The notes under the pieces: model-generated
What the model saw: the letters and a program-made list of their open reading frames with translations, nothing else
Told to the model about the DNA's origin: nothing
Databases searched by the model: none
Assembly (NCBI GenBank): GCA_018806915.1
Contig: JAGKQI010000051.1
Location: forward strand, 186,001-250,000
Direction of reading: 5' to 3'
DNA from: Phytophthora colocasiae
Lineage: Eukaryota; Oomycota; Peronosporomycetes; Peronosporales; Peronosporaceae
Length of the DNA stretch: 64,000 nucleotides
Shown here: piece after piece, positions 4,569-54,391 of the stretch
Numbering within the stretch: the stretch's first letter is position 1
Layout of the letters: every line of letters begins with the position of its first letter
Program-made: the position numbers and the translations under genes

Positions 4569-4834
4569 ATCTACCAAGCTAATGCTCGAACCTATATCTT
4601 CCAGGGAGACTGTAAATAACGCATGCTGTGTTGCAGGAGTGACTGGGACCTGTTCTGTTTGCCCCATCAACAGGTGATGCTGGATATTATCCTTTTGCAA
4701 ATCGAGACGCTGGTGATTCATGAACGCTCTTCACCACGATGAAATACCAGCTAAGAAATCTCGGAAGGCTATCAGGTACTCCTCATGTAATTCGATCTCT
4801 CTTTTGATCAATGGTGATCTATGGTGATCTATGG

Positions 4835-5012
4835 TGTAATGGGTCTACCTAGACCCACTAGGTGGTGTACATGTGCGCTTACGTGCATGAGGAAGCGTGC
4901 AAATAAGATATACTTAATTTAAATATACTTGTCCAATAAGTTTAACAATCAAATATAACTCATTTAAACTGCAAATTATGGGACCTCCTAAAGCTGTTTA
5001 ATCTATTTCTAA
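4835..5012 (-). repeat. Truncated LTR of R1 (beta family)
   Basis: It starts TGTAATGGGTCTACCTAGAC and follows the E2 LTR for about 175 bp with many substitutions and small indels. It then breaks after the block homologous to CTATTTCTAA. The remaining roughly 250 bp of the LTR are missing, and gag-side beta sequence follows directly. Confidence 0.85.
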
Positions 5013-6305
5013 TGGTTACACTGATCCGCCAGTGTGCGCTCCATGGATGCCAACTTGAGGCACAGATCCAGGATTGGTTTGATGCTAGTTCATCACCGAA
5101 CCCGATACTGTTGTACTCATACAACAGTATCAACGACGACGATGTCCCCAAGGAAGTTGTCTTTGAGTCGGAGACTCGAAGCCGCGACTGCAGCGGGGCT
5201 GCGTAGGTGTGCACGGCACAGAGGAAGTTTAGTGGACTCGTAGAGTCCTGCTTGCAAGGCACTAGCCTTCGGTTCTATACAAGAACCAAGTAGGCCACTA
5301 AATACGGGACGTACTAAATTAATGTCCCTATAATTAAGGGACTGACACTAATTATATAAACTGATTTTTATTTGGCTTTATTCCCTAATCCTAAATGAAA
5401 CGGATTTAGTATCTAACATACTAAATCCTAATCAAAATGTAGTGTGTGTGGCTCTGAGCTAACTACCATTAAATGGCTACATAGGTGACGTGTGAGACAT
5501 ACGATGTGTCATACACAGATCTGTGACTTGTGCCTTTGGCCGGTGTCTACCACACTAATGTAGCCATAGCGTCCGATTTTACGCAGCGAAGAAAACTTCG
5601 CGCAAGGGAAAAGTGCCAGAGTGGCAGGCACTATGTAAGTCGTGGAACGACTTTGTTGAGAACTTCAACAAAATCACAGCAAGGATCTCCGTGGTCGTCT
5701 TGAGCCACGCGATGCTCCGAGTGCTGTGTCTGATCGCAGCACTCCTCGTGCAGGTCTAAACCCTGCAAGTTATGGTGGGCTTCGTACGCCCTCACCATTT
5801 CCGGAACGTCCTCCATCAGGACGTTCCGCGGCTCCCATGTATCTCGCTAAGGAGGAAATCCTCTCCAACGAATACGAAAACGAACCCCTTGAGATTCGTT
5901 CTCTTATGAGCCACGATCCGCTCCACAATCCAGCGGATTGCTCCACGCGCGTCGCGCAACGGCGGCGGAGGGGGTGGGAACACTCCCTCCGCATGGTCAA
6001 CGCTATGACCATGACGATCGTGCCCTGCACGATCGAGTTGCTGCGCTGGAGCAGTGCCCAGATAGCGGCTCAGAAGCAGGAGGTTCGTGTCCTCCGTGCT
6101 AAGGTCTGTGAGGCAGCTCAGACGGCCTCGAACCTCTCGTCCGGTCTCGGGACGAGAGTAAACCGGCTGAACGACCGTACGGCTTCAACCGCCAGAAGTA
6201 GGTCGGGTGTAGTCTAATGTTGGACGGTATGTCCAGCCGGTACCCGTTGCCGTGCCGTTCAAGTACTTTGAACGGCCCAATGAATCTTGGAGCAAGCCTG
6301 CTTAC
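5013..6305 (+). pseudogene. Relic of the beta antisense ORF (R1)
   Basis: The sequence is homologous to the intact antisense ORF of E2 (14008-15594) and to the overlapping 3' end of pol. Blocks at 5013-5188 and 5568-6212 align by eye. The frame is broken by the delta LTR, a small deletion, and later frameshifts; the largest surviving frame is 5726-6217. The opposite strand retains the chromodomain tail (MEDVPEMVRAYEAHHNL) near 5770-5816. From about 6213 to 6305 the sequence corresponds to the integrase C-terminus, cut by the insertion of E1. Many of the short inverted repeats are still intact, for example GGAACGTCCT with AGGACGTTCC near 5804-5828. Confidence 0.8.
5189..5567. repeat. Solo LTR-like insertion, delta family
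   Basis: The block begins TGCAGCGGGGCTGCG and runs to about CATAGCG, interrupting beta sequence on both sides. Closely related copies lie at about 33556-33953 and 45936-46090. No clean target duplication remains and about 25 bp of the host element are missing at the junction. It shares the palindromic texture of beta (GCAGC-GGG-GCTGC, TCCCT-ATAATTA-AGGGA, TAGTAT-CTAAC-ATACTA). Confidence 0.75.
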
Positions 6306-7965
6306 TGTCGCGAAGTCGGTGAAACTTTGGTCGCGGAGCAGGAGGCGTATAGTGAACCCTAGTTATACGACTACTGAAAAGGGGTTTTCAGAGCCGTACA
6401 ACGATAGGTTGGCGTGTGGTACCTTGCGGTATCCTCGTGGGTTCGTTCTTCGGAAACATGACCCTCGCCGGAGTCTGAGAATGTGTTGTGAAGAGAAGTT
6501 GGGGTTCCCTTGGAGTCTGGTGTCGGTATTCAGGAAATCCTTCCAGGAGCGCTTGGGAGTCGGAATCTCTGGAAAACAAAGTGTTTTCCAGGAAGTCGGC
6601 GGTCGAAAAGAGGTTAATATACCAGAGAAAGTCTGAAATCGGTGTCTGAATATCACAAATCCAGAACCGAGATACCTGACTTTCAGAGATAAACAACCAA
6701 TACACAGAATTCGAAATTATACAAATATATACAGCCGTTCTTATTCTTTCTAGGCCCTTGAACGGTGGGCTAACACTCCAGGTCAACTAGGGACTTGCTA
6801 CCAGACACCTGGTCTGTCTGGTATCCCTTTACGTTCGCGCACCACCCTCTAGTATAGAGGGAAAATATAAACCAATACAATCGGCTATATATAACAGTCT
6901 ACCTTGCACTCTGAAAACGACTGTCTAGTTTCCAGAGCCTGTCCAAACGAGCAATATGAAATGGGCTACCGCTAGAGACAAAACAAACGACCCAACTAGG
7001 ATATAGAATAGGCGGGTCCTTTCAGGTCTCTGCGTTACCTGATCTCCGCCTAAGGGGATTGAATAGGCGAGAGATCACACGGCAACAATCCTTGGCGTGG
7101 CCTTGCAAACAGAAATACAATGACTTCTGGGTTACACGGCAAATTGAACTCTGTTTATCGTTTATCTTCCTCATAACTATCATATCTTTCTGGTATCTCT
7201 CTTCTGCTTGTCATCTTTTGCGTCCTTTCAGCAGTCAGTCTTCATATGTCAGGTATACTTGGCTCTTGTATGTATAAGATGTCTTGACTTGATCTCAGTA
7301 TGCAGTTTGTGCAGCCGATCTCGATGGGTTAACAGGTAGAGACGTCATTACGGGGGATGTGCAGGTCAGTAATCACTTGAATGCGTGACTTGAACTTGGG
7401 TTCACTTGGTTTCAGTATGGTCTTGGATCTTCGGTGGTTTCAGAGTCTGGTATCCTGGTTTTCAGAGTCTTGGTCACTCAGAGTTAGAGATACCAGAGTT
7501 TTGAGTGAGAAACCAGAGTACGGAGCACTAATGCTTCAACGTACATGAAGATCTTGAGGGTGGCGCGGGTGCGCGGCGTCCGGCGCGCGATACTTGGTCT
7601 CTGCGGGTATATATTGTGAATCCTTGAACCATCCATCGTCGCGCTGGACGGTAACGGGATGAGGTCTCTCAGAGATACGTTCTTCTGAGAGACTTTCCGC
7701 CAGAACTTAGGCACTCATCGTCGGGGAAAGTCCGGTGACCAGACAGAGTGTAGTTGATCTTCAGAGTTGTGCACACTCTGAAGTACACTTCTGGTCCTTT
7801 GGGCCCCTTTACAGTCAGGCGAAGGTTTATCCACAATCTTCCACAGATGTCGCACGGGTGCGGCCGCATCCCAAAATCCCTTTCGCTTATAACCCATAGT
7901 ATAACCAATCCCATCGTAACGTAATGTCCACCAGTCGCTCGAAAATCGGAAAAAACATCATGTCA
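6306..7965 (-). repeat. 3' LTR of E1 (LTR A)
   Basis: This 1660-bp LTR is the downstream one in native orientation. From 7140 to the right end it differs from the partner LTR at only about five positions. To the left of 7140 the two differ at dozens of sites, with a completely different block at about 7060-7138. Its right end abuts the polypurine tract. Confidence 0.93.
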
Positions 7966-8193: not shown

Positions 8194-8206
8194 TGTCCTC
8201 TCGCTC

Positions 8207-11693: not shown

Positions 11694-13446
11694 TTAGACT
11701 CTGGGGTGGTCGTCTCCAGCCTGCATTGCCTGAAAACGAGCTCGTGCTCGTGCACTCTGGTGGAATTCGTAAAGTAATGCTCCACAATTCAACTTCGATA
11801 ATGGTAACCACTCAGTTTCATCGTAACCTTTCCACTTAACCAGATATTCGCGCAAGCGTTTAGACGTCCTGGTACGCTTGCTCCAGCGGGTATCCAGAAT
11901 CCTCTCCACTTCATACTCGTCGTTCTCAGTATCAGGTTCCCAACTATCTTCTGGTAACAAGGCAGCGTCAAAGTCATCATCTTCTGGGATCTGAAGCTCT
12001 GCTGTTGGTCGTCTAGGAAACAGTGCTCTAGGTTTCAGGCGGCTCACATGCACCCAGGGGTTTACACGATAGCCGGTATCTTCAACCTTGAGTCGCACCC
12101 TGAAATCATCCAGCATCTCCTCGATCATGAAAGGTCCATGCCACATGTGCGCCAGTTTCCTGCTCAACCCCGTTTGTACCTTTAAGATGTAGAGCCATAC
12201 GGCGTCGCCTACAGCAAAACCTGACTTCAAACGCTCTGATAACTCGTTCCACTTTCTGGTTTGCTCTTCAGACCGATCACGTTTTGCCTTCTTCTGGAGA
12301 TCTTCGGCGCACGCCAGAGCATAACTATAGTCTCGTTGCATCTTCCTTCTCCATTCGTAAGCAGTTCGCTCCTGAGTCGTCGACGGCTTGGGTCCAAGCA
12401 TTGCGGACACCGTACCGTGAGCATCCCAACCGTGCACCAAATAAAAAGGTGTCTCCAGACGAGTGGCGTCGAATGATGTATTCAAAGCGAACATCAGTTG
12501 TTCAGCATGATCATCCCAATCACTCTGATCAGCTTCAGAGATATATGCCTTAATTGCGCGCACTACAGTTTGTACTGATCGCTCCTGCTGGCCATTGGCT
12601 TGAGGTCGATATCCTAGAGTAGCTCGTTGTCTGCTACCCAAAAGCTCTCTGAAACATTTGAACACCTCACTGATGAAGCGAGGATCTTGATCATGACGAA
12701 TCAGAGAGCTAGCTCCAAAGTTTCTGAAAACGCGTTCCTCATAAGCCTCGGCTACATCTTGAGCAGTGGTGACACTCATCGGCTTGCACATCACGTATCC
12801 TGAAAACATATCCTGGAACAGCAAGAGAAATGTGTTTCCACGTGCTGATTTCGGCATGTGGGTTACAAAGTCCATAGACACCACTTCAAACGGCCGGCTG
12901 GGCTCAATATTCCCAGGTGACGGTCCAGGATTCGGGGGTCGCCCCTTGCCACTGGCACAGTCCACACATTCCTTCACGAATCTCTCCACATCAGCATACA
13001 TACCCAACCAGTAAAACTCCGAACTCAGCTTCTCAAAGGTTCTCCTGATTCCTTGATGTCCACCCTGGTAGTCTTCATGAGCATAGTGCAACAAGTCTGG
13101 ATACAAGTCTCTGGGAACCACCAGTCTGAGTTCATCAACATTGTCCCGGGGCCGCTCTCGGGTGGCACGACTCAGGCGATAAAGTACATCTCTAGAATCC
13201 AGAACAAAGTCCTCGGCGATTCTGGCAAGTTTCCTGACTTGGGGTCGTGGCAAATCTCCCACGTCGCCTTTATGAAACTTCATGAGCTCAACCAAGTGCG
13301 GGTCCTGGCTCTGATGTGCCTTAATCCGTCGCCAGCGTTCTGCCTGGAACTCCAAAGGCCCCAAAGGTTCTCGTTCATCATCGTCCTCAGGCGGATTAGC
13401 ATCAAGCGGAGCTTGGGCACGGGTTACGGCAACCAATATTCTAACC
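11694..13446 (-). CDS. E1 pol: integrase with chromodomain
   Basis: This is the 3' half of pol, at least 580 codons, open across its whole length and truncated upstream by E2. The zinc-binding region has His residues in DLLHYAHEDYQGGHQG and a Cys pair in KECVDCASGK. The catalytic triad is D189 (SMDFVTHMP), D249 (IRHDQDPRF) and E285 (NGQQERSVQ), with exactly 35 residues between D249 and E285. A GPF motif (MWHGPFMIEEML) follows, and a chromodomain closes the protein at about 506-558 (YEVERILDTRW, EYLVKWKGYDETEWLPL). Chromodomains direct integration to marked chromatin. The upstream frame reads across the E2 target site into the RNase H segment at 21782-22200, so this was one polyprotein. Confidence 0.92.
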
Positions 13447-13906
13447 TGTAATGGGTCTACCTAGACCTATTAGATGGCGTACACGTGCGCTTACGTGTAT
13501 GAGGAAGCGTGCAATTAGAATAGACTTAATTTAAGTATACTTATTTAAATAAGTATAATTAAATCAAATATAACTAAATTAAACTGCAAAATACCGTAAA
13601 ATGAGAACTGTTATTGAATTTGGCATAAGCCAATTATGGACCTCCTAAAACTGTTTGTTATCTATTTCTAAAGGGTCTGCCAACGTGTGGTTGGCAGAAA
13701 CTCTGCTCAGTGATTGGTAGAAATCCGTTACTTTCTACCAATAATATGCACAAATGCACCCGAACCACCCAATAATGTGGTTCGCCCATGTATCCATTGG
13801 TGTGTACAGCACACCACGGTCTGAGGCCCATTTCCAACCTCTAACAGTTATCCTAACTGTTAGAGTTACAAGTGGTACAACCACTTGTACGTGTAACCCC
13901 GTTACA
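13447..13906 (-). repeat. 3' LTR of E2
   Basis: 460 bp, TGTAATGGG to CCGTTACA on the plus strand. It contains many perfect inverted repeats, including a 12-bp stem at 13839-13865 (CTCTAACAGTTA, loop TCC, TAACTGTTAGAG). The two terminal bases pairs, TGTAAC and GTTACA, are themselves part of a hairpin at 13892-13906. Confidence 0.96.
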
Positions 13907-13924
13907 CCATCCCCCCGTTAAGAT
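13907..13924 (-). promoter_or_regulatory. Polypurine tract of E2
   Basis: On the minus strand TTAACGGGGGGATGG lies directly before the LTR start TGTAACGGGG. Confidence 0.7.
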
Positions 13925-13997
13925 TCGACGTATCGGTCTCGATACGTCAATCAACTGAACTTGACAAGACCGTCAAGTTCCCAAGAGAAATCCGAGT

Positions 13998-14011
13998 TCA
14001 TTTCGCAATGG
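13998..14011 (+). promoter_or_regulatory. Oomycete initiator-like site at the beta antisense ORF
   Basis: TCATTTCGCAATGG resembles the oomycete initiator plus the first part of its flanking element and overlaps the ATG at 14008. If transcription starts at the A of TCA the leader would be only about 8 nt, so the real start may differ. Confidence 0.35.
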
Positions 14012-15594
14012 ACTCGCCAACGCCCACGTCTCCGTCCGCTACTGCGGACGCGCAAGCCTCACCTGCTGCCTCTGCAGCAGGAACAACGACCTCAGCAGTG
14101 CTCACTAGCACTGCTGCTTCCAGCGGTCCGACAGAGAAGCTCTCTGTCACCAAGTACCATGCTCTCCATAAGGAGAAGCATGAGAAGAAGAAGAAGTCTT
14201 CTTCTCTAGCAGAGATTAAGAATCCTGCTGTACCTTTTAAAGAACTCTTTGGAGAGGACTACGAAGACATCCTCGACTACGAGGAGGATGTCGAGGAGGG
14301 GGAGGTTGATGTCAAGGCTCCCGCTCCCGTGTCTTCGTCTGAAGACACGTCAGACCCACCCGTGGGATCTCGACGACCTCGTGATGAGGCCTCGGACGCT
14401 TCAAGCTCGAAGCGTCCGCGCAGTGATGATGAAGCGTCCCCCATGTCGAGGGCGCTCACTGCCCCGCGCACTGATCTGCCAGTGCGCACACCATGGATGC
14501 CTACTGAGGCGGAAATCCATGACCGGTTCGGTGCTAGTTCACCACCGAACCCGATACTGTTGTACTCATGCAACAGTATCAATGACGACGACGTCGCCGC
14601 AAAGGTTGTCTTTGAGTCCGAGACTCAAAGACGCGACTACTATATCGGGCTCTTCCATGAGCTCCGATACTATGCAGCGAAGAAGACTTCGCGCAAGAGC
14701 AAAGTGCCCGAGTGGCAGGCACTTTGTCAGTCGTGGAACGCCTTTGTTGATAACTTCAACAAAGACCCGAAGGCATATCGCGATCGCGTTGCTGCGGCTC
14801 GCGATCGCTACTACACTTACACTACACGTGGTAAGTGTGAACGCCTCCATGATCAGTCCATGGAAGCGAGGATCCCATGTGCCGTTCCCTTTGGCACACC
14901 CTGCCCGTGTTGCCCACCCTTGGCAACACGCCTCACCGAAAGTGATCTCCTGGGGTACACGGTCGTCCGTGTACCCGATCACATCAAGGAACTCCGTGGT
15001 CGTATTGTGCCACGCGAAGCTCCGAGTGCTGTGGCTGACCGCAGCACTCCTCGTGCAGGGTTTAACCCTGTAAGTTATGGTGGGCTTCGTACGCCCTCAC
15101 CATTTCCGGAACGTCCTCCATCAGGACGTTCCGCGGCTCCCATGTATCTCGATGGGGAGGAAATCCTCTCCAACGAATACGAAAACGAACCCCTTGAGAG
15201 TTCGTTCTCTTATGAGCCACGATCCGCTCCACAATCCAGCGGATCGCTCCACGCGCGTCGCGCAACGGCGGCGGAGGGGGTGGGAACACTCCCTCCGCAT
15301 GGTCAACGCTATGACCATGACGATCGTGCCCTGCACGATCGAGTTGCTGCGCTGGAGCAGACACAGAGCGCTGAGATAGCTGCTCTGAAGCAGGAGGTTC
15401 GTGTCCTCCGTGCTGAGGTCTGCGAGGCAGCTCAGACTGCCTCGAACCTCTCGTTCGGTCTTGGGACGAGAGTGAACCAGTTGATCGACCGTGTCGACGG
15501 TCTCGAGAAGGCCTTCCAGGCCTCTCGCACTCCAGTCGGACTACCAACCCTAGGTAGTCCGTGCTGCACGTACGGCTTCAACCGCCCGACGTAG
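14008..15594 (+). CDS. E2 antisense ORF, unknown protein
   Basis: This 528-codon ORF runs opposite to gag-pol and is uninterrupted. I do not recognise the family. The N-terminus is Ser/Thr/Ala-rich, followed by a Lys-rich helix (HEKKKKSSSLAEIKNP), an acidic patch (EDYEDILDYEEDVEEGE) and an Arg-rich, Ser-rich basic segment. The middle (about residues 175-290) looks globular, with YYIGLFHELRYYAAKKTS and VPEWQALCQSWNAFV. The C-terminal third is Pro/Arg-rich with a short coiled coil near 455-480 (AEIAALKQEVRVLRAEV). The last 530 bp overlap the chromodomain end of pol on the other strand. R1 holds a decayed copy of the same ORF. The palindromic texture of the sequence could help keep both strands open, which weakens the coding argument. 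Confidence 0.65.
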   Translation: MDSPTPTSPSATADAQASPAASAAGTTTSAVLTSTAASSGPTEKLSVTKYHALHKEKHEKKKKSSSLAEIKNPAVPFKELFGEDYEDILDYEEDVEEGEVDVKAPAPVSSSEDTSDPPVGSRRPRDEASDASSSKRPRSDDEASPMSRALTAPRTDLPVRTPWMPTEAEIHDRFGASSPPNPILLYSCNSINDDDVAAKVVFESETQRRDYYIGLFHELRYYAAKKTSRKSKVPEWQALCQSWNAFVDNFNKDPKAYRDRVAAARDRYYTYTTRGKCERLHDQSMEARIPCAVPFGTPCPCCPPLATRLTESDLLGYTVVRVPDHIKELRGRIVPREAPSAVADRSTPRAGFNPVSYGGLRTPSPFPERPPSGRSAAPMYLDGEEILSNEYENEPLESSFSYEPRSAPQSSGSLHARRATAAEGVGTLPPHGQRYDHDDRALHDRVAALEQTQSAEIAALKQEVRVLRAEVCEAAQTASNLSFGLGTRVNQLIDRVDGLEKAFQASRTPVGLPTLGSPCCTYGFNRPT

Positions 15595-15776
15595 AAGGTC
15601 GGGTGGAGTCTCATGCTGGACGGTATGTCCAGCCGGTACGCGTTACCATGCCGTTCAAGTACTTTGAACGGCCCAATGAATCTTGGAGCAAGCTTGCTTG
15701 CTCCAAAGTCAGACACTGCATGTTTAGGCAGGTTTTGTGCAGCTAACAAAACTTTATGAACCCACTTTGAATTCAT
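15062..15776 (-). pseudogene. E2 pol end: GPY/F region and chromodomain
   Basis: The frame at 15432-15776 reads KLAPRFIGPFKVLERHGNAY and SSMRLHPTFYVGRLKPY, the classical GPY/F end of chromovirus integrases. A second frame, 15062-15547, ends with IVERIVAHKRTNSQGVRF, RIRWRGFPPHRDTWEPRNVL, a chromodomain with its WEP signature. A frameshift separates the two, and another near 15760 separates both from the integrase core. The chromodomain end overlaps the antisense ORF. Confidence 0.8.
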
Positions 15777-17688
15777 TTATGTTGCCCCTACCAACAGTAT
15801 CAGCGTTCAGCTTCTGTCGATCGACAGAAGCTGCGATAGCATCTTGGACAAACCGTATGACGGCTTGGCTTCGCTGGACAAAGTCTAGCGCACCCGAGCT
15901 GAATCCTTTCAGCTTGTCGCCCTTGTCAGCAGCAGGCCCTGCCTGCTCGCTATCATCTCTCATGTCTGTGCCCGGCACAGACATCGCGCGCTCGTTCCTG
16001 CTCGAACGAGACGTCGCACGCGTCACCGCAGCTGATAGTGTGCTGCTATCAGTTGCATTCTGCGGTTGTTCGGACGCAACCGTAGATCCTCCCCCACTTA
16101 AGGACGAAGCTACCCCGCCGAGCATGCTCGGCAATCGTGGATGCCTCATGGCGTTCACGTAGAACGGTGTATGCCCTGTCGAGGCATGCACCGAGTTGTT
16201 GATGGCAAACTCTGCCATCGGCAAGCACTCGCTCCAATGCGGGAACGAGTGAGCGTAGCTCTTCAACGTGTCACCCAATACACGGTTGACACGTTCGGTC
16301 TGTCCGTCCGTCTGCGGATGATCCGCAGTCGACATTGATAACTGTGAACCAAGAAGTGTAAACACTTCTTGCCAGAACCGCGCTGTGAAGCGTGGATCAC
16401 GGTCCGACACAATGTCGAGCGGCATGCCATGGTGTTTGAACACCATGTCAACAAACAGTCGCGCAGTCTGCGCGGCTGTAACAGTAGCCGGGACGGCAGC
16501 AAGATGAACCATCTTGCTGAATCGGTCCACAAAGACAACGCTGCCCGTCCTCCGCTTGCTGTCAGGCGGAAGACCGAAGACAAAGTCCATGGACATGGAC
16601 TGCCAACACTCCGACAGAGTCGGTAGTGATTGAAGAGGAGCCTGCGAGAACTGCGCAGGCTTCACGCGTTGACAAACCTCGCAAGCACGTACGTACTTGC
16701 GCACCCACTTGTACTGGTGGTGCCAGTAGAAGTAACGCGTGAGAAGAGTGTATGTCTTCTCACGACCCGAATGCCCTGCCGTGAGGGCATCGTGATACTC
16801 GAACATGATCCTCAACCGGAGGTCATGATCATTCGGAATGACAATGCGATCCGCATTGTCGTCTACTGCACTGTACAACAGTAGGCCTTCGTGTACACGA
16901 TAGCGGTGTACACGAGCTCGAAGATGAGGGGTTAGCTTCCGACGTGCCACGTCGGAAGGTGCTGCGAGGAACTCCAGCAGCCCCTTCGCGTCTGCATCCC
17001 TTGCATACGCGTTCTTCACGTCGTCAATCAACGTTGACGACGGCACACTTGTCCTCACGACGCCAACAGCGTTGGCGTCGACCGTCTCCGCATAGCCAGG
17101 TCGACGCGATAACGCGTCGGCCACTACATTGAGTCTTCCGGGTTTGTACTCCACCCGGAAGTTGTACTCCGCGAAGAAGGACAACCATCTCGCCATACGT
17201 TGCGAGATGTGCGGCGACTTAATCGCCGTACGCAATGATGCGTGGTCTGTATAGACCACGAACGGTCTACTCCCAAGTAGATACACTCGGAACTTTGCGA
17301 GTGCATACTTCATGGCAAGGAGCTCCTTGTCATGTACGGGATAGTTACGCTCAGCTGGCTTCAGCTGACGCGATTGATAGTAGACTACACGATCACGCCC
17401 TTCGTGATCGTGTTGCATCAATGCACATCCGATTGCAAAGTCGGATGCATCGCACACTACGTGGAATGGACGATCTTGGTCCGCCACGGCCAAGATCGGC
17501 GCTTCAGTCAAGCCCTGCTTGACTGCACCGAATGCCTCCTCGCACTCGGTCGTCCAAATCCACTCAGCTTCTTTCTTAAGAAGCTGTGACAACGGGCGAA
17601 TCTTGCCCGCATAGTTCTCCACGTACTTGCACAAGTACGTGGCCCAAGGAACTGCCTCAGTTCCTTCACATTGGATGGCGTGGGCCAT
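15754..17688 (-). pseudogene. E2 pol: RNase H and integrase core
   Basis: A long open frame of 644 codons. RNase H shows VVCDASDFAIGCAL, KELLAMKYALAKFRVYL and VYTDHASLRT, ending in VVADALSRRPG. The integrase part has HDALTAGHSGREKTY and CEVCQRVKP (zinc-binding), MDFVFGLPP, VSDRDPRFTARFW and TDGQTERVNRVL with the three acidic residues in place. The sequence would be functional by itself, but a 4-nt deletion near 17642 (compare the AAGC retained in R1 near 32010) puts it out of frame with RT, and a further frameshift cuts it from the GPY/F region. Confidence 0.88.
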
Positions 17689-18374
17689 TCATTGATCACT
17701 CTGACCTTCTCTGGGTCAGGGCGCACGCCGTCTTTCCCCACGAGACACCCCAGCACGGGTATCTCGCTCGCCCCGAAGATACACTTCTTCAGGTTCGCAT
17801 AGACCTTATGTTTCCTCATAAGCTCTAGCAGCTTCCGGAGATGCACCTTGTGCATCTCAATGTCCGTCTTCCCGTTCACAGCCCGGCTGTGGACGAACAC
17901 GTCGTCGAAGTAGCTCGGTGCGAAGTCGCGCACCGAGCGCAATAGATGTGTCACGCATCTATTGAACGTCGCAGGGGCGTTCTTAAGCCCCTGTGGCATG
18001 ACGAGCCACTCCCAAAGCATACCGCTTGGAGTGCTTACCGCTGTGAGAGGGATGTCCCTCTCACGCATGAAGATTTGATAGAATCCATCACGCAGATCTA
18101 GAGCACTGAAGATAGTGCTCAAGGCCATCGAATCGATGATAACATCTTTTCGCGGTATCGGCGTCTGCGCCGGTATCGTCGCATCGTTCAGCTTGTTATA
18201 CGCATGAACGATGCGCCAGCCGCCCTGTGGTTTCTTAACACAGAACGTTGGGGCACTGTGCGGGGACTTTGATTCCCGCACTTGACCACGACTTTCAAAG
18301 AAGTCGTCGATCGCTTGAACTTGTTCACGCGGCAGTGGCCACTGCCGTGTAACACAGTACTTCGTGCCCGGCAC
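17508..18374 (-). pseudogene. E2 pol: reverse transcriptase
   Basis: The frame reads PTFCVKKPQGGWRIVHAY, DLRDGFYQIFMRERDIPL, VMPQGLKNAPATFNRCV and SYFDDVFVHSRA. The last carries the FDD form of the RT catalytic motif. The thumb follows (KKCIFGASEIPVLGCLVGKDG). The N-terminal fingers join the preceding frame at 18188-19201 by another shift, and the C-terminal end is out of frame with RNase H through the deletion near 17642. Confidence 0.88.
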
Positions 18375-19761
18375 GAGATCAATCTCGTGCTGTACGCCCT
18401 TGTCCTTCGGAAGCTCCGAAGGAATCTCGTCCGGGAGTACATCCTTGTACTCCCGCAGAACTTCGTAGTAGGGCTCGCCCTAAACGAGTCCCAACTCTGC
18501 TCTTCGAAGCGCTGCTTCTTAGTCTTCGCACTGAGGGAGTCATCACCCTCAGTGATCCCATCGACGACGAGCTTCAGCTCTTCGGCTTCGCGATCCACTC
18601 TCTCAACATCCGAGATAATGCAAATTTGTTCGATGCGTCCATCGTACAAGTCTCGCGCGAAGCGCTTCCAACTCATCGTTGGAAGTGCGGTCAACGCCGA
18701 CGCACTCGTCGGCGTATTCTCCAACCGCATCCTCTGGTACTGTAACCCAGTACCAGTACGTGTCAAGACGTTCAACGTCTCGACACTCGGTGTCTGCACT
18801 GCAGATACACCCGTCTCAGTCCCGGACTGAGACTCGCGCAGCTCCCTGAGCTTGCGCCGCGAAGGTCTACCATGGAGCCCGGCTCCAGGTGCTCCACGTT
18901 CAAGGCATCGCACCTTGGACGGGACGTTATCGCAATCGTCAGCGGATTCCTTTCGCTGACTCGCACTATCAAGCCCGGCTTGAGTGCCGCTCATCGCGTG
19001 CAGCGCTGCTGCACGTGAGCACGCAGGTTGTTCGGGTGCTGGGCGTTTGCAACCGCCAGCACCTCCTGCCGCGCAGTCGGTTCCCTGAACCGCTGCGCCT
19101 CCATCCGCTCCCGGAGCGGATGAAGCAACCGCATCGTCGACTCCCGGAGTCGACGTGCTCTCGCTAGCTTCCTGCGCTAGCGAGTGTTCGCTTGTACACA
19201 TATCATCCCTTCCCAGAGCGGATGTACGATCGCTAGTTCCCGGAACTAGCAGCGACTGTTCGCCTATACACGTCTCATCAGCTCCTGGAGCTGATGACCG
19301 ATCGCTAGTTCCCGGAACTAGCAGCGAAGCGCCAGTGGCGTCAGCTCCCAGAGCTGACGCACGCCTTTCGGTTCCCCGAATTTTATTTATTTCGTCAACT
19401 CCCGGAGTTGACGCGACGTCGTCGGCGCGACCCTATCTCCAAGGATACCGGTAATACCGGAATTTTACCTTCTCTTAGGTGAATCGCATTCACCTGACCA
19501 TCACTCATGTGACAAACATCATTCAGATGTTTACGCGTCAGGTGATTCACATTCACCTGACCATCACTCATGTGACCGCGACCCTTCGGCTCAGATTTCT
19601 GAGTCGACACACATTTTCTCACAACGACTCTCGGAGGCAGCGGCGGACGCTGCTGCCTCAACTGGGGAATCACATGCACCGCCTGGTGCATGTGCAGCAC
19701 TGACAGGGCCATCGCTCTCTGTCGCGCATGCGTTGTTGAAGCGTACGAGTGTACGCTTCTC
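18375..19761 (-). pseudogene. E2 linker between protease and RT, with hairpin array
   Basis: The minus strand encodes a low-complexity Ser/Pro/Gly/Ala-rich linker with repeated SAPGAD, STPGVD and LVPGTSDRS-like units (about 19110-19420), then a Cys/Ala-rich part and a conserved stretch (SVETLNVLTRTGTGLQYQRM) leading into RT. At DNA level each repeat unit is a palindrome around a CCCGGA-like centre. Beyond it (19480-19600) come direct repeats of CACCTGACCATCACTCATG. Frames shift several times. No catalytic motif was seen. Confidence 0.6.
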
Positions 19762-20241
19762 TCAGTTGATCACCGGTTCATGCCGTGCAAGCCACGGCAT
19801 GCCTAATACCAAGTCGAACTTATCGTCTAGATCCAAGACGATAAGATCTTCTACAAACGTCCTTCGTTTGTAAGAGAAGCGCACACGGACTACGCGCTTC
19901 TCAGTCCTCACGGTGGCACCCGTTGCCAACCGCACCTCCAACACGCTGCGAGGCGTGTCGGCCTCTTCGAAGTCAAGTCTTCGAAGACTTCCCTGTCGAA
20001 CAAAGTTATTCGACGCGCCCGAGTCCACTAGGGCACTAAGAGAGTTCACTCTCTTCGACATCACGTTCAGGATGACAAGGTTTGGCTTGTCATCTTGCAG
20101 CTTACAGCGAGAAACCTTCTCGCTGGGGGCAGCAGTCCTCATCGTCGCGTGTCCAAGCTCGACACGCGAGACTGCATCACCAGTAGGACGCCCCGCGCCT
20201 ACTGGTCCTTGGCGTTTTTTGAACGCCCGCCCGCTGTGCAC
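19762..20241 (-). pseudogene. E2 retropepsin-like protease
   Basis: The frame contains ALVDSGASNNFVRQGSL with the DSG active site, and LDDKFDLVLGMPWLARHEP, the second conserved block of retropepsins (hydrophobic-LGMPWL). In R2 the reading goes on after VIN into WEKRTLVRFNN. In E2 that Trp codon is TGA, so the frame stops at 19762. The upstream end overlaps the zinc-knuckle frame in another phase. Confidence 0.85.
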
Positions 20242-21184
20242 TCGCGTGCATAGTGACCGATGTTACTACACTTGTAACATCGAACCTTGCTGTTCCTACG
20301 CTGCTGTTGACCAGCAGTCGTAGCACTCGAGAGGTCCATAGGTTCCGGACCTCCCGTCTTCACAACAGGACGCGCCGGCTTCGGCGCGTTCGCATGGAGT
20401 TTAGCTTGACGTCGGCTAAACTCCTCTTGCATCGCAAGGCTGATCGCCTCTTCGAGAGTATTCGGATACTCTCGGAAGAGATATGTTTTGACGGGACCAT
20501 CTCTTAGTCCTTCATGAACGTGACGACCTTGGTCGCCTCGTCGATCGGGTTGGCCACTATGTTCGATACCAAGTATCGAGCACGCTGGGCAAAGGTGTGA
20601 ACATCATCCTTGCCCTGTTGCAGATCGAGAAACTCCGCTCTCGATCTGAACTCGTTCTTCGGAGGCTCAAATGCAAGTTTGAGTTCCTCCTAGAACACCT
20701 CATACGTGCTGAAGCACGTAGGATCCGAGAGTCGGCGCCCATAGGCCCAACTCCTCGCACGTCCGCCAAGACATGACATGGCGAACGCGACCTTCGACAT
20801 CGGATCGACGATACGTCGAGCCGCAACGGCTGTGTCGAGTTCGACAAGCCACCGAAGGAGGGTCTCGTCCTCCTTCCCCGTGTAGGTACTCACGTGGAGT
20901 TTCAACGACTCCACGCGTGGCTTCGGGGAAGCCACCGAGGCAGCAACATCTCGTTGCTCCTTAACAATGTACCCCAGAGCAACACCGTGTTGCTCTGTCG
21001 GCGATAGCGTACGAAGCATCGTAGCTACCGCTGCCTCTCCAATGACTCGCGAGAGTCTTTGGAGAGCCTCCCACTCTGGATCAGACAGGTGGGCGTAGTC
21101 CGTGCGCGTCACGGACATTTGAGGGGTCCCAGCGGATCCCTCATCCATTGGGGAGTTCTCTACCCCGCGTTCGTATGACTCCAT
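20199..21184 (-). pseudogene. E2 gag with CCHC zinc knuckle
   Basis: Gag starts at ATG 21184 (MESYERGVENSPMDEG). The capsid-like domain includes LHVSTYTGKEDETLLRWLVE and SCLGGRARSWAYGRRL. A TAG at about 20688 replaces a Lys codon present in R2 (FSTYEEFKEEL there), and a deletion near 20511 shifts the frame. The third piece, 20199-20432, holds the nucleocapsid knuckle CYKCSNIGHYARECTAGG (C-X2-C-X4-H-X4-C). So this young copy cannot make an intact Gag. Confidence 0.85.
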
Positions 21185-21213
21185 ACGAACGAGCAGCAGT
21201 CGGTCGTGGGACG

Positions 21214-21231
21214 GACTACAAAGTGCTACCA
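21214..21231 (-). promoter_or_regulatory. Primer binding site of E2
   Basis: On the minus strand, two bases inside the 5' LTR, TGGTAGCACTTTGTAGTC begins with the TGG that pairs with a tRNA CCA end. I cannot name the tRNA. Confidence 0.6.
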
Positions 21232-21233
21232 GG

Positions 21234-21693
21234 TGTAATGGGTCTGCTTAGACCTATTAGGTGGCGTACACGTGCGCTTACGTGTATGAGGAAGCGTGCA
21301 ATTAGAATAGACTTAATTTAAGTATACTTATTTAAATAAGTATAATTAAATCAAATATAACTAAATTAAACTGCAAAATACCGTAAAATGAGAACTGTTA
21401 TTGAATTTGGCATAAGCCAATTATGGACCTCCTAAAACTGTTTGTTATCTATTTCTAAAGGGTCTGCCAACGTGTGGTTGGCAGAAACTCTGCTCAGTGA
21501 TTGGTAGAAACCCGTTACTTTCTACTAATAATATGCACAAATGCACACGAACCACCCAATAATGTGGTTCGCCCATGTATCCATTGGTGTGTACAGCACA
21601 CCAAGGTCTGAGGCCCATTTCCAACCTCTAACAGTTATCCTAACTGTTAGAGTTACAAGTGGTACAACCACTTGTACGTGTAACCCCGTTACA
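21234..21693 (-). repeat. 5' LTR of E2
   Basis: 460 bp, followed by the target duplication TAACC. Compared with the other LTR I count seven substitutions and no indel. One of them (TTTCTACTAAT against TTTCTACCAAT) breaks one pair in an inverted repeat. Confidence 0.96.
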
Positions 21694-21781
21694 TAACCGA
21701 TCGAGGTAGGGGTGCGGATTCCGGATCAAAAGCATCCTCAGACTCTGGTGACGCATTATGATTTTCAGAGTCTGGTATTTT

Positions 21782-28909: not shown

Positions 28910-29307
28910 TTACTCCGAAGTCAGATACTGCATGTTTAGGCAAGGTTTGTGTAGCAAACAAAACTAATGAACCGTTTTTAAATTCATTTATGTTGCCCCT
29001 ACCAACAGTATCCCCGTTCAGCTTCTGTCGATCAACAGAAGCTGCGATAGCATCCTGGACAAACCATATGACTGCTTGTGTTCGCTGGGCAAAGTCTAGC
29101 GCACCCAAGCTGAATCCTTTCAGCTTGTAGCCATTGTCAGCAGCAGGCCCTGCCTGCTCGCTATCATCTCTCATGTCTGTGCCGGGCACAGACATCGTGC
29201 GCTCGTTCCTGCTCGAACGAGACGTCGCATGCATCACCGCAGCTGATGTGTGCTGCTATCAGCCGTATCCTACGGTTGTTCGGACGCAACCGTAGACCCT
29301 CCGCTAC
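28910..29307 (-). pseudogene. R1 integrase C-terminal fragment
   Basis: The minus strand reads SRSSRNERTMSVPGTDMRDD, AIAASVDRQKLNGDTVGRG and LPKHAVSDFG, homologous to the integrase tail of E2 (15700-16080). It directly continues the R1 sequence cut at 6305. It ends at the TTAA target of the piggyBac element. Confidence 0.85.
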
Positions 29308-29311
29308 TTAA

Positions 29312-30823
29312 CCCCTCTAAAGCGCTGCTCTGTATCATACAGATTAAGCAGTATGATAAGATTTAATATTTGGCTATCTTGCCATCAAGGTTTTCATCCG
29401 CATCTAGAAATTTGTATTGGGTAGAGACGCGATGATTATTCTTGTGGAGTATGTTGGGAAGATAGGTAGTGATTATTCACCCTCCATTGCCAACCGTTCA
29501 TTTGCGATTTTTTCTCGACGATGAAAGTACATATATTCTGTACCATAGAGAACACTAATGCTGTACCATACAGAACAAGTGCTAAAGATTGGATTAGTCG
29601 CGTGCTGGATGCGCGCACTAACACAATGCTGTATGTCGTAATATTTTCTATGCTGTATTCTACAGAGTTGAGCTTTATCTTGGCAATGAAACCAGTGCTG
29701 GACTGGCAAAAGGCGTGGCTTAGAGGGCTGTCGCTCGCAATGCTTCTAAGGCTCTCGCAGGTCAACCCGTAAAACGATTGATCATTGCTGACAATTACTA
29801 CAGCTCGTGTGATTTAGTGCTGACACTGCTTGAGAAGAGCTACTACTATGTTGTAACCGGTTGTTTATAGCGTTCGTCGACATGGTTGTTAACGCGTTCA
29901 TCCTGCACAAAGCGGTGCTTCAGAAGAAATGAGAGCAAGTTCCCACTCGCACTAAGTACATGCGCCGGTTGCAAGTGGAGCTTCTGAATGTATCCAAAGT
30001 CACGTTACGGAACAACATCAACGCGGAGAATTTAGCGACAGTGCCTACGCCAGCGGACGACCACACGCTTGTGAACACCGACGATACGTACGAAGGCGGG
30101 TGGAACGCGAAGAGGCACCAGCATCTCTGCAAAGTTTGCTCGGCAATGGCTGTGCCCAAAACAAAAGCTATGAGAGCAGTTAGTACTGCCCCATCTGCAC
30201 GGAACTTCGCGGAGGCTACGTACCTCTGTGCAATCCGAGAGGCGTCTGGCAGTATGTTGACGTGCAGACAAATTTGGCATCAATCGTGGGCAAATAGAAC
30301 AGCAATCATTTCAAGAAGATTCGCTTCCGTGAGCGCAAGCGTAAGCGCCATAACGCTAAGGAGAAGAAAGAGAAGAACAATGCCAGTGAGAATAGTGATT
30401 AGAACAGTCAGTGAGTTGAGGTTCGAACCTTATTGCTTCACACACCAAAGTTTTCGGCCAGTTCTATCCTAGTTCTTCTTCACTTCTGTCTAGTCTAGAA
30501 CTGGCCGAAAATTTGGTGAGTGAAACGCATGGCACTTGCCTCCCTCCTCCAAACGTGTGGGCGCGAAACATGGCGCCAAAATCAGTTTTCAATCAATTTA
30601 GGCGGGATATTGCGATTCTGAGGTGATTTGCTGATTTGTATAGCCAATCAGGAAACGTAAATGTGTCAGCTGGCTTCAAAATTGCAACGTTTCTACTACA
30701 TCTCGCAGTAGCTTTGCCACAAGCAGGCTTATGACAGAATATGTATGAGAGTTTTAAAAAGTATACAAAAAAATATTTAGTCTAATTCTGTATGATACAG
30801 AATAAAACCTCGCTTTAGAGGGG
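29312..30823 (+). mobile_element. piggyBac-type transposon in R1
   Basis: Perfect 13-bp terminal inverted repeats CCCCTCTAAAGCG and CGCTTTAGAGGGG, flanked by TTAA on both sides (29308-29311 and 30824-30827). Removal of the element restores ACTTAAGGA, matching the uninterrupted beta copy E2 at 16098. A 13-nt palindrome-like CTGTATCATACAG lies just inside the left end and CTGTATGATACAG inside the right end. The total length is 1512 bp. Confidence 0.95.
29770..30420 (+). pseudogene. piggyBac transposase C-terminal remnant
   Basis: The frame around 29770 reads LIIADNYYSSCDLVLTLLEK, with the Asp-Asn-(Phe/Tyr)-Tyr signature of the piggyBac catalytic domain. After a frameshift a basic Cys-rich end follows (RHQHLCKVCSAMAVPKTK, then in another frame YCPICTELRGGYVPLCN), matching the C-terminal zinc-binding domain. 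The first half of the protein is missing, and stops and shifts disable the rest. Confidence 0.8.
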
Positions 30824-30827
30824 TTAA

Positions 30828-31527
30828 GGAGGAAGCTACCCCACCGAGCATGCTCGGCAATCGCGGATGCTTCATGGCATTCACATAGAACGGTGTATGC
30901 GCAGTCGAGGCATGCACCGATTTGATGATGGCAAACTCTGCCATCGGCAAGCGCTCGCTCCAATGCGGGAACGAGTGAGCATACCTCTTCAACTTCTCGC
31001 CCAGTACGCGGTTGACACATTCGGTCTGTCCGTCCGTCTGCGGATGATCCGTAGTCGACTGTGAACCAAGAAGTGTAAACACTTCTTGCCAGAACCGCGC
31101 TGTGAAGCGTGGATCACGGTCCGACACAATGTCGAGCGGCATGCCATGGTGTTTGAACACCATGTAAACAAACAGTCGCGCAGTCTGCGCGGCTGTAACA
31201 GTAGCCGGGACGGCAGCAAGATGAACCATCTTGCTGAATCTGTCCGCAAAGACAACGATGCCTGTCCTCTGCTTGCTGTCAGGCGGAATACCGAAGTCAA
31301 GCCCATGGACATGGACTGCCAACACTCCGACGGAGTCGGAAGTGATTGAAGAGGAGCCTGCAAGAACTGCGCAGGCTTCACGCGTTGACAAACCTCGCAA
31401 GCAAGTACGTACTTGCGCACCCACTTGTACTGGTGGTGCCAGTAGAAGTCAAGCGTGAGAAGAGTGTATGTCATCTCACGACCCGAATGCCCTGCCGTAG
31501 GGGCATCGTGATACTCGAACATGATCC
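30828..31527 (-). pseudogene. R1 integrase core
   Basis: Frame 30777-31424 reads DRFSKMVHLAAVPATVTAAQ, DIVSDRDPRFTARFWQEVF and DGQTECVNRVLGEKL. The catalytic Glu of DGQTE is kept, but the following Arg is Cys. The zinc-binding part lies in another frame (31430-31549, CEVCQRVKPAQF). A deletion near 31527 removes the sequence up to the RNase H end. Confidence 0.85.
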
Positions 31528-32440
31528 ACCCGGAAATTGTATTCCGCAAACAAGGACAACCATCTCGCCATACGTTCCGAGCTGTGCGACGACTTAATCG
31601 CCGTCCACAATGATGCGGGATCTGTATAGACCACGAACCCTAAGTAGATACACTCGGAACTTTGTGAGTGAATACTTCATAGCAAGGAGTTCCTTGTCAT
31701 GTACCGGGTAGTACACTCAGCTAGTTTCAGCTGACGCGACTGATAGTAGACCACATGATCACGCCCGTCATGATCGTGTTGCATCAATGCACATCCGACC
31801 ACAAAGTCGGATGCATCGCACACTACGTGGAATGGACGATCTTGGTCCGCCACGGCCAAGATTGACGCTTCAGTCAAGCCCTGCTTGGCTGTACCAAATG
31901 CCTTCTCGCGCTCGGCCGTCCAAATCCACTCAGCTTATTTCTTAAGAAGCTGTGACAACGGGCGAATCTTGCCCGCGTAGTTCTCCACGCACTTGCACAA
32001 GTACGTGGCAAGCCCAAGGAACTGCCTCAGTTCCTTCACATTGGATGGCGTGGGCCATTCATTGATCACTCTGACCTTCTCTGGGTCAGGGCGCACGCCG
32101 TCTTTCCCCACGAGACACCCCAGCACGGGTATCTCGCTCGCCCCGAAGATACACTTCTTCAGGTTCGCATAGAGCTTATGTTTCCTCATACGATCTAGCA
32201 GCTTCCGGAGATGCACCTTGTGCATCTCAATGTCCGTCTTCCCGTTCACAGCCCGGCTGTGGACGAACACGTCGTCGAAGTAGCTCCGTGCGAAGTCGCG
32301 CACCGAGCACAATAGATGCGTCACGCATCTATTGAACATCGCAGGGGTGTTCTAAAGCCCCTGTGGCATGACGAGCCACTACCAAATCATACCGCTTGGC
32401 GTGCTTACCGATGTGAGAGGAATGTCCCTCTCATGCATGA
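31528..32440 (-). pseudogene. R1 RNase H and RT fragments
   Basis: RNase H pieces include VVCDASDFVVGCALMQHD and TTRYMTRNSLL near 31680-31880. RT reads MFNRCVTHLLCSVRDFARSY, YFDDVFVHSRAVNGKTD, and KELRQFLGLATYLCKCVEN in frame 31935-32339. Here the RT-RNase H junction is still in frame, unlike E2. The RT N-terminus is lost by a deletion near 32440. Confidence 0.85.
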
Positions 32441-33400
32441 GGATCTTCGCACTGAGGGAGTCATCACCCTCAGTGATCCCATCGACGACGAGCTGCTTCA
32501 GCTCTTCGGCCTCGCGATCCACTCTCTCAACATCCGAGATAATGCAAAGTTTTCGATGGGTCCATCGTAAAAGTCCCGCGCGAAGCTCTTCCAACTCATC
32601 GTTGGAAGTGCGGTCAATGCTGACGCACCTGTCGGCGGATTCTCCAACCGAATCCTCTGGTACTGTAACTCTGTACCGCTACGTGTCAAGACGTTCAACG
32701 TCTCGACACTCGGTGTCTGCCCTGCAGATATACCCACCTCAGTCCGGGACTGAGACTCGCTCAGCTCCCTGAGCTGGCGCCGCCAAGGTTTACCATGGCG
32801 CCCGGAGCGAATGAAGCACCCGCATCGTCGACTCCCGGAGTCGACGTGCTCTCTCTAGCTTTCAGTTATAGCGAGTGTTCTCTTGTACACGTTTCATCAG
32901 CTCCCGGAGCTGATGCACGATCGCTAGTTCCCAGAACTAGCAGCGACGCGCCAGTGATATCAGCTCCCAGAGCCTTTCGGTTCCCTGAATTTTATTTGCT
33001 TCGATAACCCCCAGAGTTGACGCGACGTCGTCGGCGCGACCCTTGGGGTCTTGAAGTACCGCCAAGGATACCGGTAATACCGGTATTTTACCTTCTCTCA
33101 GGTGAATCGCATTCACCTGACCATCACTCATGTGACAAACATCATTCAGATGTTTATGCGCCAGGTGATTCACATTCACCTGACCATCACTCATGTGACC
33201 GTGACCCTTCGGCTCAGATTTCTGAGTCGACACACATTTTCTCCCGACGACTCCCTGAGTCGCTGGCGGTCACTGCTGCCTCAACTGGGGAATCACATGC
33301 ACCGCCCGGCGCATGTGCAGCACTGGTAGGGCCATCGCTCTCTGTCGCGCAGGTGTTGTTGAAGCGTACGAGCGTACGCTTCTCCCAGTTGATCACCGGG
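32441..33400 (-). pseudogene. R1 linker and start of protease region
   Basis: Homologous to 18520-19770 of E2. It retains SVETLNVLTRSGTELQYQR, the palindromic linker units (for example ATCAGCTCC with GGAGCTGAT at about 32907-32925) and the CACCTGACCATCACTCATG repeats. Beta homology stops abruptly at 33400 after GTTGATCACCGG. Confidence 0.8.
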
Positions 33401-42395: not shown

Positions 42396-43141
42396 TCACG
42401 TCGGCGGATTCTCCAACCGCATCATCTGGTACTGTAACCCAGTACCAGTACGTGTCAAGACGTTCAACGTCTCGACACTCGGTGTCTGCTCTGCAGACAC
42501 ACCCTCCACAGTCACGGACTGGGACTCGCAAAGCTCCCTGAGCTTGCGCCGCGAAGGTCTGCCATGGAGCTCAGCTCCAGGCGCTCCACGTCCAAGGCAT
42601 CTCACCTTGGACGGGACTTTATCGCAATCGTCAGCGGATTCCTTCCGCTGACTCGCACATTCAAGCACTGCTTGTGTGCCGCTCATCGCGTGCAGCACCG
42701 CTGCACGTGAGCACGCAGGTTTTTCTGGTGCTGGGCGTTTGCAACCGCCAGCACCTCCTGCCGCGCAGTCGGTTCTCAGAACCACTGCGTCTCCATCCGC
42801 TACAACGGATGAAGCAACTGCATCGTCGACTCCCGGAGTCGACGTGCTCTCGCTAGCTTCCAGCGCTAGCGAGTGTTCGCTTATACACGTATCATCAGCT
42901 CCCGGGGCTGATGAACGATCGCTTGTTCCCGGAACTAGCAGCGAAGCGCCAGTGGCGTCAGCTCCCAGCTGACGCACGTCTTTCGGTTCCCCGACTTTTA
43001 TTTTCTTCGTCAACTCCCAGAGTTGACGCGACGTCGTTGGCGCGACCCAACTCCAAGGATACCGGTAATACCGGTATAATACCTTCTCTCAGGTGAATCG
43101 CATTCACCTGGCCATCACTCATGTGACCGCGACCCTTCAGC
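42396..43141 (-). pseudogene. R2 linker region with palindromic units
   Basis: Frame 42396-43013 matches the E2 linker (STPGVDDAVASS, SVETLNVLTRTGTGLQYQ). The palindromic units recur, for example GTCGACTCC with GGAGTCGAC near 42827-42843. It ends where the Tc1/mariner remnant begins. Confidence 0.8.
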
Positions 43142-44689: not shown

Positions 44690-44738
44690 ACGAACGAACT
44701 GCAGCCGGTCGTGGGACGGACTACACAGTGCTACCAGG

Positions 44739-44855
44739 TGTAATGAGCCTACCTAGACCTATTAGGTGGCGTACACGTGCGCTTACATGTATGATGAACC
44801 GTGCAATTATGATAGACTTAATTTAAGTATACTTATTTAAATAAGTATAATTGAA
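44739..44855 (-). repeat. Truncated 5' LTR of R2
   Basis: It begins TGTAATGAGCCTACC and follows the E2 LTR to the AT palindrome at 44828-44849 (TATACTTATTT and its complement), then ends within about 6 bp. The remaining 340 bp of the LTR are lost. Confidence 0.85.
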
Positions 44856-54390: not shown

Positions 54391-54391
54391 G

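Follow-up and report, generated by a model that had tools for sequence, protein, structure and literature searches.

The closest described counterparts of the element reported here are the genome-scale ordered RNA structure (GORS) of RNA viruses, a feature suggested to help persistence and to keep RNA from being recognized (PMC9784701), and the palindromes of nematomorph mitochondrial genomes, which reach 284 bp and are possibly kept by repeat conversion (PMC6649704). Template switching between inverted arms also has a published mark, inversion of the spacer (PMC8604942, PMC8794818). The window analyzed here is a 64,000-nucleotide stretch of the Phytophthora colocasiae genome (contig JAGKQI010000051.1, positions 186,001 to 250,000), and the subject is E2, a full-length Ty3/gypsy long terminal repeat (LTR) retrotransposon at 13447..21693 with gag-pol on the minus strand. 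E2 is covered by short perfect hairpins whose stems are conserved among its copies, and our tentative reading is that selection keeps them.

By the standard definition of an inverted repeat used here (perfect arm of at least 7, loop of at most 12), E2 contains 153 perfect inverted repeats, compared with a mean of 6.05 and a maximum of 10 in 20 dinucleotide shuffles, a hairpin density 25 times chance. Only loops from 0 up to about 17 nt show the excess, and loops of 18–25 nt yield 0 repeats. Perfect arms of 7 to 13 bp number 40, 33, 48, 25, 13, 2, and 1, respectively (loops of at most 20), and are thus spread broadly over 7–11 bp before they cease. Both the loop ceiling near 17 nt and the stop in arm length after 11 bp constrain any explanation. 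When overlaps are disallowed (arm at least 6, loop at most 24), 193 hairpins remain, one per 43 bp, with a median span of 22 and a median gap of 15 nt; their phases relative to codons number 35, 24, and 28. A preliminary description of this locus had already called E2 hairpin-rich, and its ten listed examples with coordinates lie exactly in place, as does one 'near 13955' (at 13957-13980, 11/11); its spacing of 25–35 bp was slightly too dense. Rfam models gave no matches up to E 1 in 13300-21800, which excludes a known structured RNA family as the identity of the hairpins.

Two LTRs, a target-site duplication, a primer-binding site (PBS), and a polypurine tract (PPT), the last two by convention, place E2 among Ty3/gypsy elements. 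Its protease (PR), reverse transcriptase (RT), and RNase H-integrase (IN) pieces follow in PR-RT-RNase H-IN order on the minus strand by Pfam matches, and because the domains, PBS, and PPT are all oriented minus, the genomic RNA corresponds to the minus strand. The features are as follows.

13447..21693, minus strand: E2, full-length Ty3/gypsy element, hairpin array end to end
13442..13446: target-site duplication TAACC, left copy (5 bp), from the sequence
21694..21698: target-site duplication TAACC, right copy (5 bp), from the sequence
21234..21693, minus strand: 5' LTR, 460 bp, 98.5% identity to the 3' LTR (LTR comparison)
13447..13906, minus strand: 3' LTR, 460 bp (LTR comparison)
21213..21231, minus strand: PBS-like sequence TGGTAGCACTTTGTAGTCC, 2 nt from the 5' LTR, presumed by convention
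13907..13919, minus strand: AACGGGGGGATGG, adjoining the 3' LTR, which we take by convention to be the PPT
20690..21247, minus strand: gag-side open frame, stop to stop
19762..20262, minus strand: aspartic protease piece (PF08284; Pfam)
17508..18479, minus strand: reverse transcriptase piece (PF00078; Pfam)
15754..17688, minus strand: RNase H + integrase piece (PF17917, PF17921, PF00665; Pfam)
14008..15594, plus strand: antisense gene, 528 aa, under purifying selection and with relatives in many Phytophthora species

The PBS-like sequence sits in a 75-nt gap free of hairpins (21192-21266). The region near 13955, previously labeled an untranslated leader, is instead the 3' end of the gag-pol transcript, on the PPT side, and lies upstream of the antisense gene. 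The gag-side frame matched no Pfam model up to E 0.01, and the gag-pol of E2 itself is broken into several frames, where in other copies the frames reach up to 1,753 aa. A 77-bp unit stands in tandem inside E2 (19179-19255 and 19251-19327, 83% identity).

Codon-preserving shuffles (100 per open reading frame (ORF) piece) leave the excess intact in every piece, at 7–35 inverted repeats compared with about 0.5–3: the RNase H-integrase piece has 35 (shuffle mean 1.96, max 5), the plus-strand ORF 34 (mean 2.93, max 9), 18188-19432 25 (mean 1.57), the RT piece 17 (mean 1.35), the protease piece 11 (mean 0.84), and the gag-side piece 7 (mean 0.55). Coding constraint as the cause of the hairpins is thereby ruled out, as the preliminary description had argued.

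Conservation was assessed in an alignment of E2 with 20 further stretches (L031-L050) taken from 40 scored out of 695 candidates in the host assembly (92.5 Mb, 105 contigs). The 40 were scored at 98–100% identity over 1 kb, and the family is multicopy and recently mobile. Seventeen of the 20 stretches align over at least 6.4 kb, and L037, L042, and L046 over only 2.1, 4.8, and 2.4 kb; badly aligned windows were masked, columns with fewer than 10 usable rows were removed, and a variant was counted as shared when present in at least 2 of the 21 copies. With loops of up to 17 nt and arms of at least 7, the 17 stretches carry 133–168 repeats each, the other three 63–96, and E2 162. Shared synonymous variants occur at 13/605 stem sites (0.0215), 31/195 loop sites (0.159), and 67/716 sites between hairpins (0.094), making them 7-fold rarer in stems than in loops (stem vs the rest, Fisher p 1.7e-11). 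The corresponding non-coding values are 9/688 (0.013), 18/236 (0.076), and 34/992 (0.034), and the nonsynonymous rates are 0.010, 0.024, and 0.018 per site. Pairing is conserved at synonymous, nonsynonymous, and non-coding sites. Rates are alike when the stems are defined in three other copies. Single-copy synonymous variants, which include post-insertion changes, are less skewed (0.093, 0.267, and 0.138 for stem, loop, and between), and stems have a smaller ratio of shared to single-copy variants at synonymous sites (13:56 vs 98:151, p 0.0016) and, marginally, at non-coding sites (p 0.045).

Thirty-four shared variants fall at 3,000 pairable stem positions, whereas positions that are complementary yet too close to pair (less than 4 apart) have 6 in 90, a loop-like level; physical pairing therefore matters, not a palindromic motif. 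Shared transversions are found at 0.0030 per stem site and 0.0188 per loop site, and transitions at 0.0083 and 0.0414. Left arms have 24 shared variants in 1502 positions and right arms 10 in 1498.

Three broken relics of the E2 family within the window share the hairpin texture, as had been claimed for R1 and R2.

4833..6306, minus strand: R0, broken E2-family relic, rich in hairpins and carrying, at about 5190-5571, a solo-LTR-like insert from another family
28910..33399, minus strand: R1, broken and interrupted relic, ~93% identity to E2 where aligned, hairpin-rich
42399..44856, minus strand: R2, broken relic, ~93% identity to E2 where aligned, hairpin-rich

R0 contains 14 inverted repeats in 1.5 kb, R1 28 in 2.6 kb, and R2 37 in 2.5 kb, compared with about 1 each after shuffling of 2-base blocks, the control used for the relics and the other parts of the window.

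The reading that we prefer, at somewhat less than even confidence, is that the ~190 short perfect hairpins of E2 would be kept because selection keeps its single-stranded RNA or cDNA folded. Selection for structured RNA is the best supported of the causes put forward previously, the stems being conserved only where they can pair, at non-coding as well as synonymous sites, a pattern that would fit single-stranded cDNA as well. A silencing interaction, another of those causes, is a hypothesis. The likeliest benefit would be to protect an ambisense element against the formation of double strands and against RNA silencing. Judged by its conserved antisense gene, E2 is such an element as predicted from sequence. 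The gene is under purifying selection: its nonsynonymous/synonymous ratio for shared variants among the 21 copies is 0.23, and the frame of E2 is stop-free in 18 of the 21 aligned rows, a count that takes no account of frameshifts. It is matched by 459 proteins, and the named ones among the best 120 are from Phytophthora. Because both strands of E2 carry genes, sense and antisense RNAs would both have been made at some time. A chain of mini-hairpins may then hinder annealing of the gag-pol RNA to the antisense RNA of the 528-aa gene and conceal targets of small RNAs in E2 RNA; its perfect arms, which range over 7–11 bp and end near 11 bp, would not be long enough to serve as Dicer substrates. 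In P. infestans, transposon small RNAs map mostly to LTR retrotransposons and the 21-nt class is Dicer-dependent (PMC3522703). The hairpins themselves probably arose, or became perfect, when a polymerase or reverse transcriptase switched templates between inverted arms; loop inversions (described below) would be the trace of this switching, and selection rather than arm copying would keep the hairpins once made. The stronger composite claim, that E2 is the first known retroelement selected over its full length, LTRs and coding strands included, as a mini-hairpin chain, a self-folding armor with which an ambisense element could express both strands without yielding double-stranded RNA fit for silencing, built by strand switching of its own RT and shared by a Phytophthora clade, is doubtful as a whole.

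Several observations weigh against selection for folding. The shared-to-single ratio in stems is not significantly lower at nonsynonymous sites (p 0.22), and stems are strongly conserved although one mismatch among ~190 hairpins should cost little. Selection could also be mimicked if paired bases mutate rarely. The hairpins cover all of E2 and the antisense gene only its last 1.7 kb, so that shielding needs a long antisense transcript. The wobble evidence given below leans to the plus strand (cDNA or antisense RNA), away from the genomic RNA. Finally, the pol part of L056, a gypsy family with 45% amino acid identity in RNase H-integrase, has no such texture (6 repeats in 3.5 kb, loops of at most 17).

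Selection might act on single-stranded cDNA and not on RNA, with first-strand hairpins protecting against nucleases or deaminases or aiding strand synthesis. A cDNA-level role is the next most likely after shielding, because folding and mismatches of the wobble type both favor the cDNA strand, and in itself we rate it unlikely. Coverage of the entire element, LTRs included, is consistent with it. In 160-nt windows (n=102), predicted fold z-scores average -5.03 on the plus strand, which is that of first-strand cDNA, and -4.25 on the minus strand (p 1e-6), while five control stretches have means between -1.0 and 0.5 (two of them R-free element/gene regions, 10 windows each). By hand tally, 17 of the 27 mismatches fixed in E2 and matched in the relics are G.T and 1 is A.C; outward mismatches comprise 17 G.T and 7 A.C of 37, and arms of at least 10 rise from 33 to 74 when G.T is allowed and to 51 when A.C is allowed (4.6 and 5.8 after shuffling). 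Shared variants among the 21 copies are biased as well, with 76 C>T and 30 G>A on the plus strand. In genomic RNA sense this bias is G>A, as after cDNA deamination or RT misincorporation. However, antisense RNA would fit the same lean, the C>T bias can yield it without selection and confounds all wobble-based strand evidence, and the shared stem changes of young copies have no lean (12 G.T and 13 A.C of 30). Both strands, moreover, fold far better than shuffles in silico; predicted folding lies 33–42% below shuffles (10 windows per strand), which exceeds typical GORS.

A neutral process, in which template switching both creates the hairpins and keeps their arms matched by arm copying, would need no function. 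Evidence for it comes from the loops. In a survey of 5,055 loop observations with intact arms (E2 included, some copies twice), triloops in which all three bases had changed were the exact reverse complement in 13 of 13 rows, which reduce to 8 hairpin-copy cases at 6 hairpins; one 6-nt loop and one 2-nt loop are also inverted, for exact inversion at 8 hairpins overall, the mark described for yeast inverted repeats (PMC8604942).

13839..13865: LTR hairpin, 12-bp arms; loop TCC inverted (GGA) in two other copies
14393..14418: hairpin, 6-nt loop inverted in one other copy
14608..14632: hairpin, loop CGA inverted in one other copy
16840..16860: hairpin, loop ATC inverted in one other copy
17058..17080: hairpin, loop AGC inverted in one other copy
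17838..17858: hairpin, loop CTT inverted in one other copy
19477..19495: hairpin, loop CGC inverted in two other copies
20038..20055: hairpin, 2-nt loop inverted in one other copy

These exact inversions show that strand switching occurs at E2 hairpins. A 10-nt loop in R2 is inverted with one further change, and four of the five variable single-base loops changed from C to G, the inverted base (the fifth changed from T to C in 7 copies). Complementarity also enters minimal loops beyond the ~25% expected (19 with L=1 vs 22 with L=3), and repeat conversion has been proposed by the authors of the nematomorph study for the mitochondrial palindromes (PMC6649704).

Maintenance by arm copying fares worse. 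It predicts that about half of stem mutations appear as matched doubles, but among 1,498 pairable pairs in the 21 copies there were 0 matched and three unmatched double changes, compared with matched pairs broken by 25 shared and 202 single-copy changes; the arms are therefore not kept matched by template switching. The young copies contain one single-copy matched double, at an unpairable place. Between R2 and E2, matched doubles number 3 among 429 pairs, of which 1 is pairable and two sit at inner positions unable to pair; R1 and R0 compared with E2 have none. Minimal-loop positions are not homogenized, and just 6 of 2,834 hairpins have at least 2 pairs absent from the family majority. We consider the neutral process improbable. 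The earlier suggestion that template switching perfects near-palindromes thus holds for the exact loop inversions and fails for homogenization of the arms. Recent hairpin creation by multi-base events was also rejected: among 8 clusters of at least 3 single-copy changes within 14 bp, one is a pure loop inversion, only one gains an inverted match (8 nt), 4 lose one, and 2 are neutral.

A quite improbable explanation is mutational shielding, by which paired bases mutate less in a single-stranded stage and old hairpins merely persist. Unpairable positions vary like loops and single-copy variants are likewise depleted in stems, as it would predict; however, shielding is unable to create complementarity and requires a 5-fold effect on transitions and a 6-fold effect on transversions. 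Least probable of all are dispersed packaging or dimerization signals read by Gag, since the loops are the most variable part and freely inverted, so that no shared loop motif is kept, and the LTRs and antisense gene are also covered, even though hairpins recur over the whole genome of E2 and, in Ty3, short palindromes close to the 5' end hold the genomic RNA dimers together (PMC11381356).

Maintenance of folding by selection may extend to relatives in other Phytophthora species, which were compared as proteins. Named protein matches of E2 among the best 120 per query belong to Phytophthora and Globisporangium, consistent with an oomycete host; the four best pol matches are named Phytophthora proteins with 79–82% identity (P0001-P0004), and the antisense gene has a Phytophthora relative with 84% identity (P0122); no DNA relatives were found in viral contigs or prokaryote genome contigs. 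The protein-level test asked if residues beneath the two arms vary together in a way that leaves pairing possible through synonymous codons. Its first form gave 6.94 own and 6.78 swapped pairs. Where both arms had changed, RNase H-integrase was better than a one-arm chimera in 19 cases and worse in 34 at identities of at least 78% (56 and 144 below 62%), and the plus-strand ORF was better in 156 and worse in 90 at 48–60%. A further form was strongly positive in all bands except RNase H-integrase below 62%, a result inflated by unchanged arms and saturation. Under a strict control, with both arms changed and the amount of change matched, RNase H-integrase gave +0.0285 at identities of at least 78% (15 hairpins up, 2 down, p 0.004; 1 of 12 slid registers was higher, at +0.033), +0.0245 at 62–78% (p 0.017), +0.0206 for these two bands pooled (16 up, 7 down, p 0.053), and -0.0045 below 62% (p 0.6). 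The plus-strand ORF gave +0.020 at 48% or more (17 up, 7 down, p 0.04) and +0.007 below (p 0.6), and everything together +0.0166 (p 0.11). Covariation across Phytophthora is suggestive of conserved hairpins and weak under the strict control. In the comparison of L056 with E2, at 54% nucleotide identity, 90 of 235 hairpin pairs are matched, compared with 21–29% in slid registers, a result that speaks neither for nor against shared hairpins.

Outside the E2 family, inverted repeats are not in excess at 1-4800 (2 vs 2.5 shuffled), 7925-13446 (3 vs 3.8), or 47500-64000, which holds a gypsy element and two multicopper-oxidase frames (8 vs 9.2). The earlier statement that the elements E1 and E3 lack the texture is correct as far as 7925-13446 and 47500-64000 are concerned; the texture is nevertheless not unique to E2, because a fragment of another gypsy family has it.

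About 45480-46190, minus strand: piece of a different gypsy family, rich in hairpins; its position beside an LTR piece makes it the likely leader and start of gag

Two overlapping pieces of this fragment have 6 repeats in 551 bp and 6 in 421 bp, each compared with 0.2 shuffled, and a second count gives 8 inverted repeats in 0.75 kb. Twenty-six of 40 scored genomic places match it at 69–71% identity. In comparison with one 71%-identical relative, over one region that is likely leader and in which most kept pairs are simply unchanged, 5 of 7 hairpins (arm at least 6) are largely matched, 1 is lost, and 1 is unaligned; of three pairs with changes on both sides, two still match and one does not, and one hairpin has grown from 7 to 10 bp. 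Mild excesses outside the E2 family occur at 21694-27000 (9 vs 2.9 shuffled, max 6) and 34000-42000 (14 vs 4.2, max 9), and also at 6421-7441 (3 vs 0.65) and 27364-28385 (3 vs 0.75). In the non-E2 sequence that borders 30 other copies, density runs from 0 to 5.4 repeats per kb (loops of at most 17).

Some further observations concern the surroundings and the antisense protein. An 11-bp-arm hairpin (GGATTTAGTAT) is present at 5402-5428, in the solo-LTR-like insert within R0, and at L020:3460-3486 beside another E2 copy; its presence in both places indicates that other LTR families carry single strong hairpins. One open frame at 47758-50532 encodes multicopper oxidase domains together with a ZIP zinc transporter domain, and a second multicopper oxidase frame lies at 61308-63284, the two being separated by the gypsy element. 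The 528-aa antisense protein has acidic and basic clusters and no Pfam match above the cut-off; one relative (P0196) carries the name HMG box domain-containing.

If the stems are indeed kept by selection, about a third of the genome of a mobile element would be under a structural code layered over its proteins, and E2 would let nature itself test what the structure of RNA or cDNA does to silencing, reverse transcription, and template switching. Because its loops are inverted recurrently, E2 is also a natural reporter of strand switching in an LTR retrotransposon, and the constraint on synonymous sites is a caution against dating by silent sites.

In its PR-RT-RNase H-IN order, LTRs, PBS, PPT, and 5-bp duplication, E2 resembles other Phytophthora Ty3/gypsy (Metaviridae) elements, for which no hairpin carpet turned up in listings of the open-access literature; unlike E2, the family at 45% identity in the same genome is without one over 3.5 kb. 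The preliminary description knew of no described element with this property, and no retroelement with an end-to-end hairpin carpet appeared among the open-access papers listed by literature searches; close analogues nonetheless exist in the nematomorph coding palindromes (PMC6649704) and viral GORS. The 528-aa gene is alike in position and orientation to that of a system described in plant hosts, in passages that make no mention of a hairpin carpet (PMC7264820). Published template-switch hairpins are single events spread over many genes (PMC8794818, PMC8604942), whereas in E2 they are recurrent within one element, with arms of 8–12 bp in this comparison and no arm homogenization among young copies. 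Like nematomorph mitochondrial genomes, E2 has perfect inverted repeats within functional coding sequence (PMC6649704), but its arms are short, its hairpins number ~190 per element and extend to the non-coding parts, and its stems are conserved with no conversion visible. Like GORS, its predicted folding energy is genome-wide far below that of shuffles (PMC9784701), but local perfect hairpins with arms of 7–11 bp dominate and both strands fold. E2 is as an element an ordinary member of Ty3/gypsy, and its architecture comes close to viral GORS and to the nematomorph coding palindromes.

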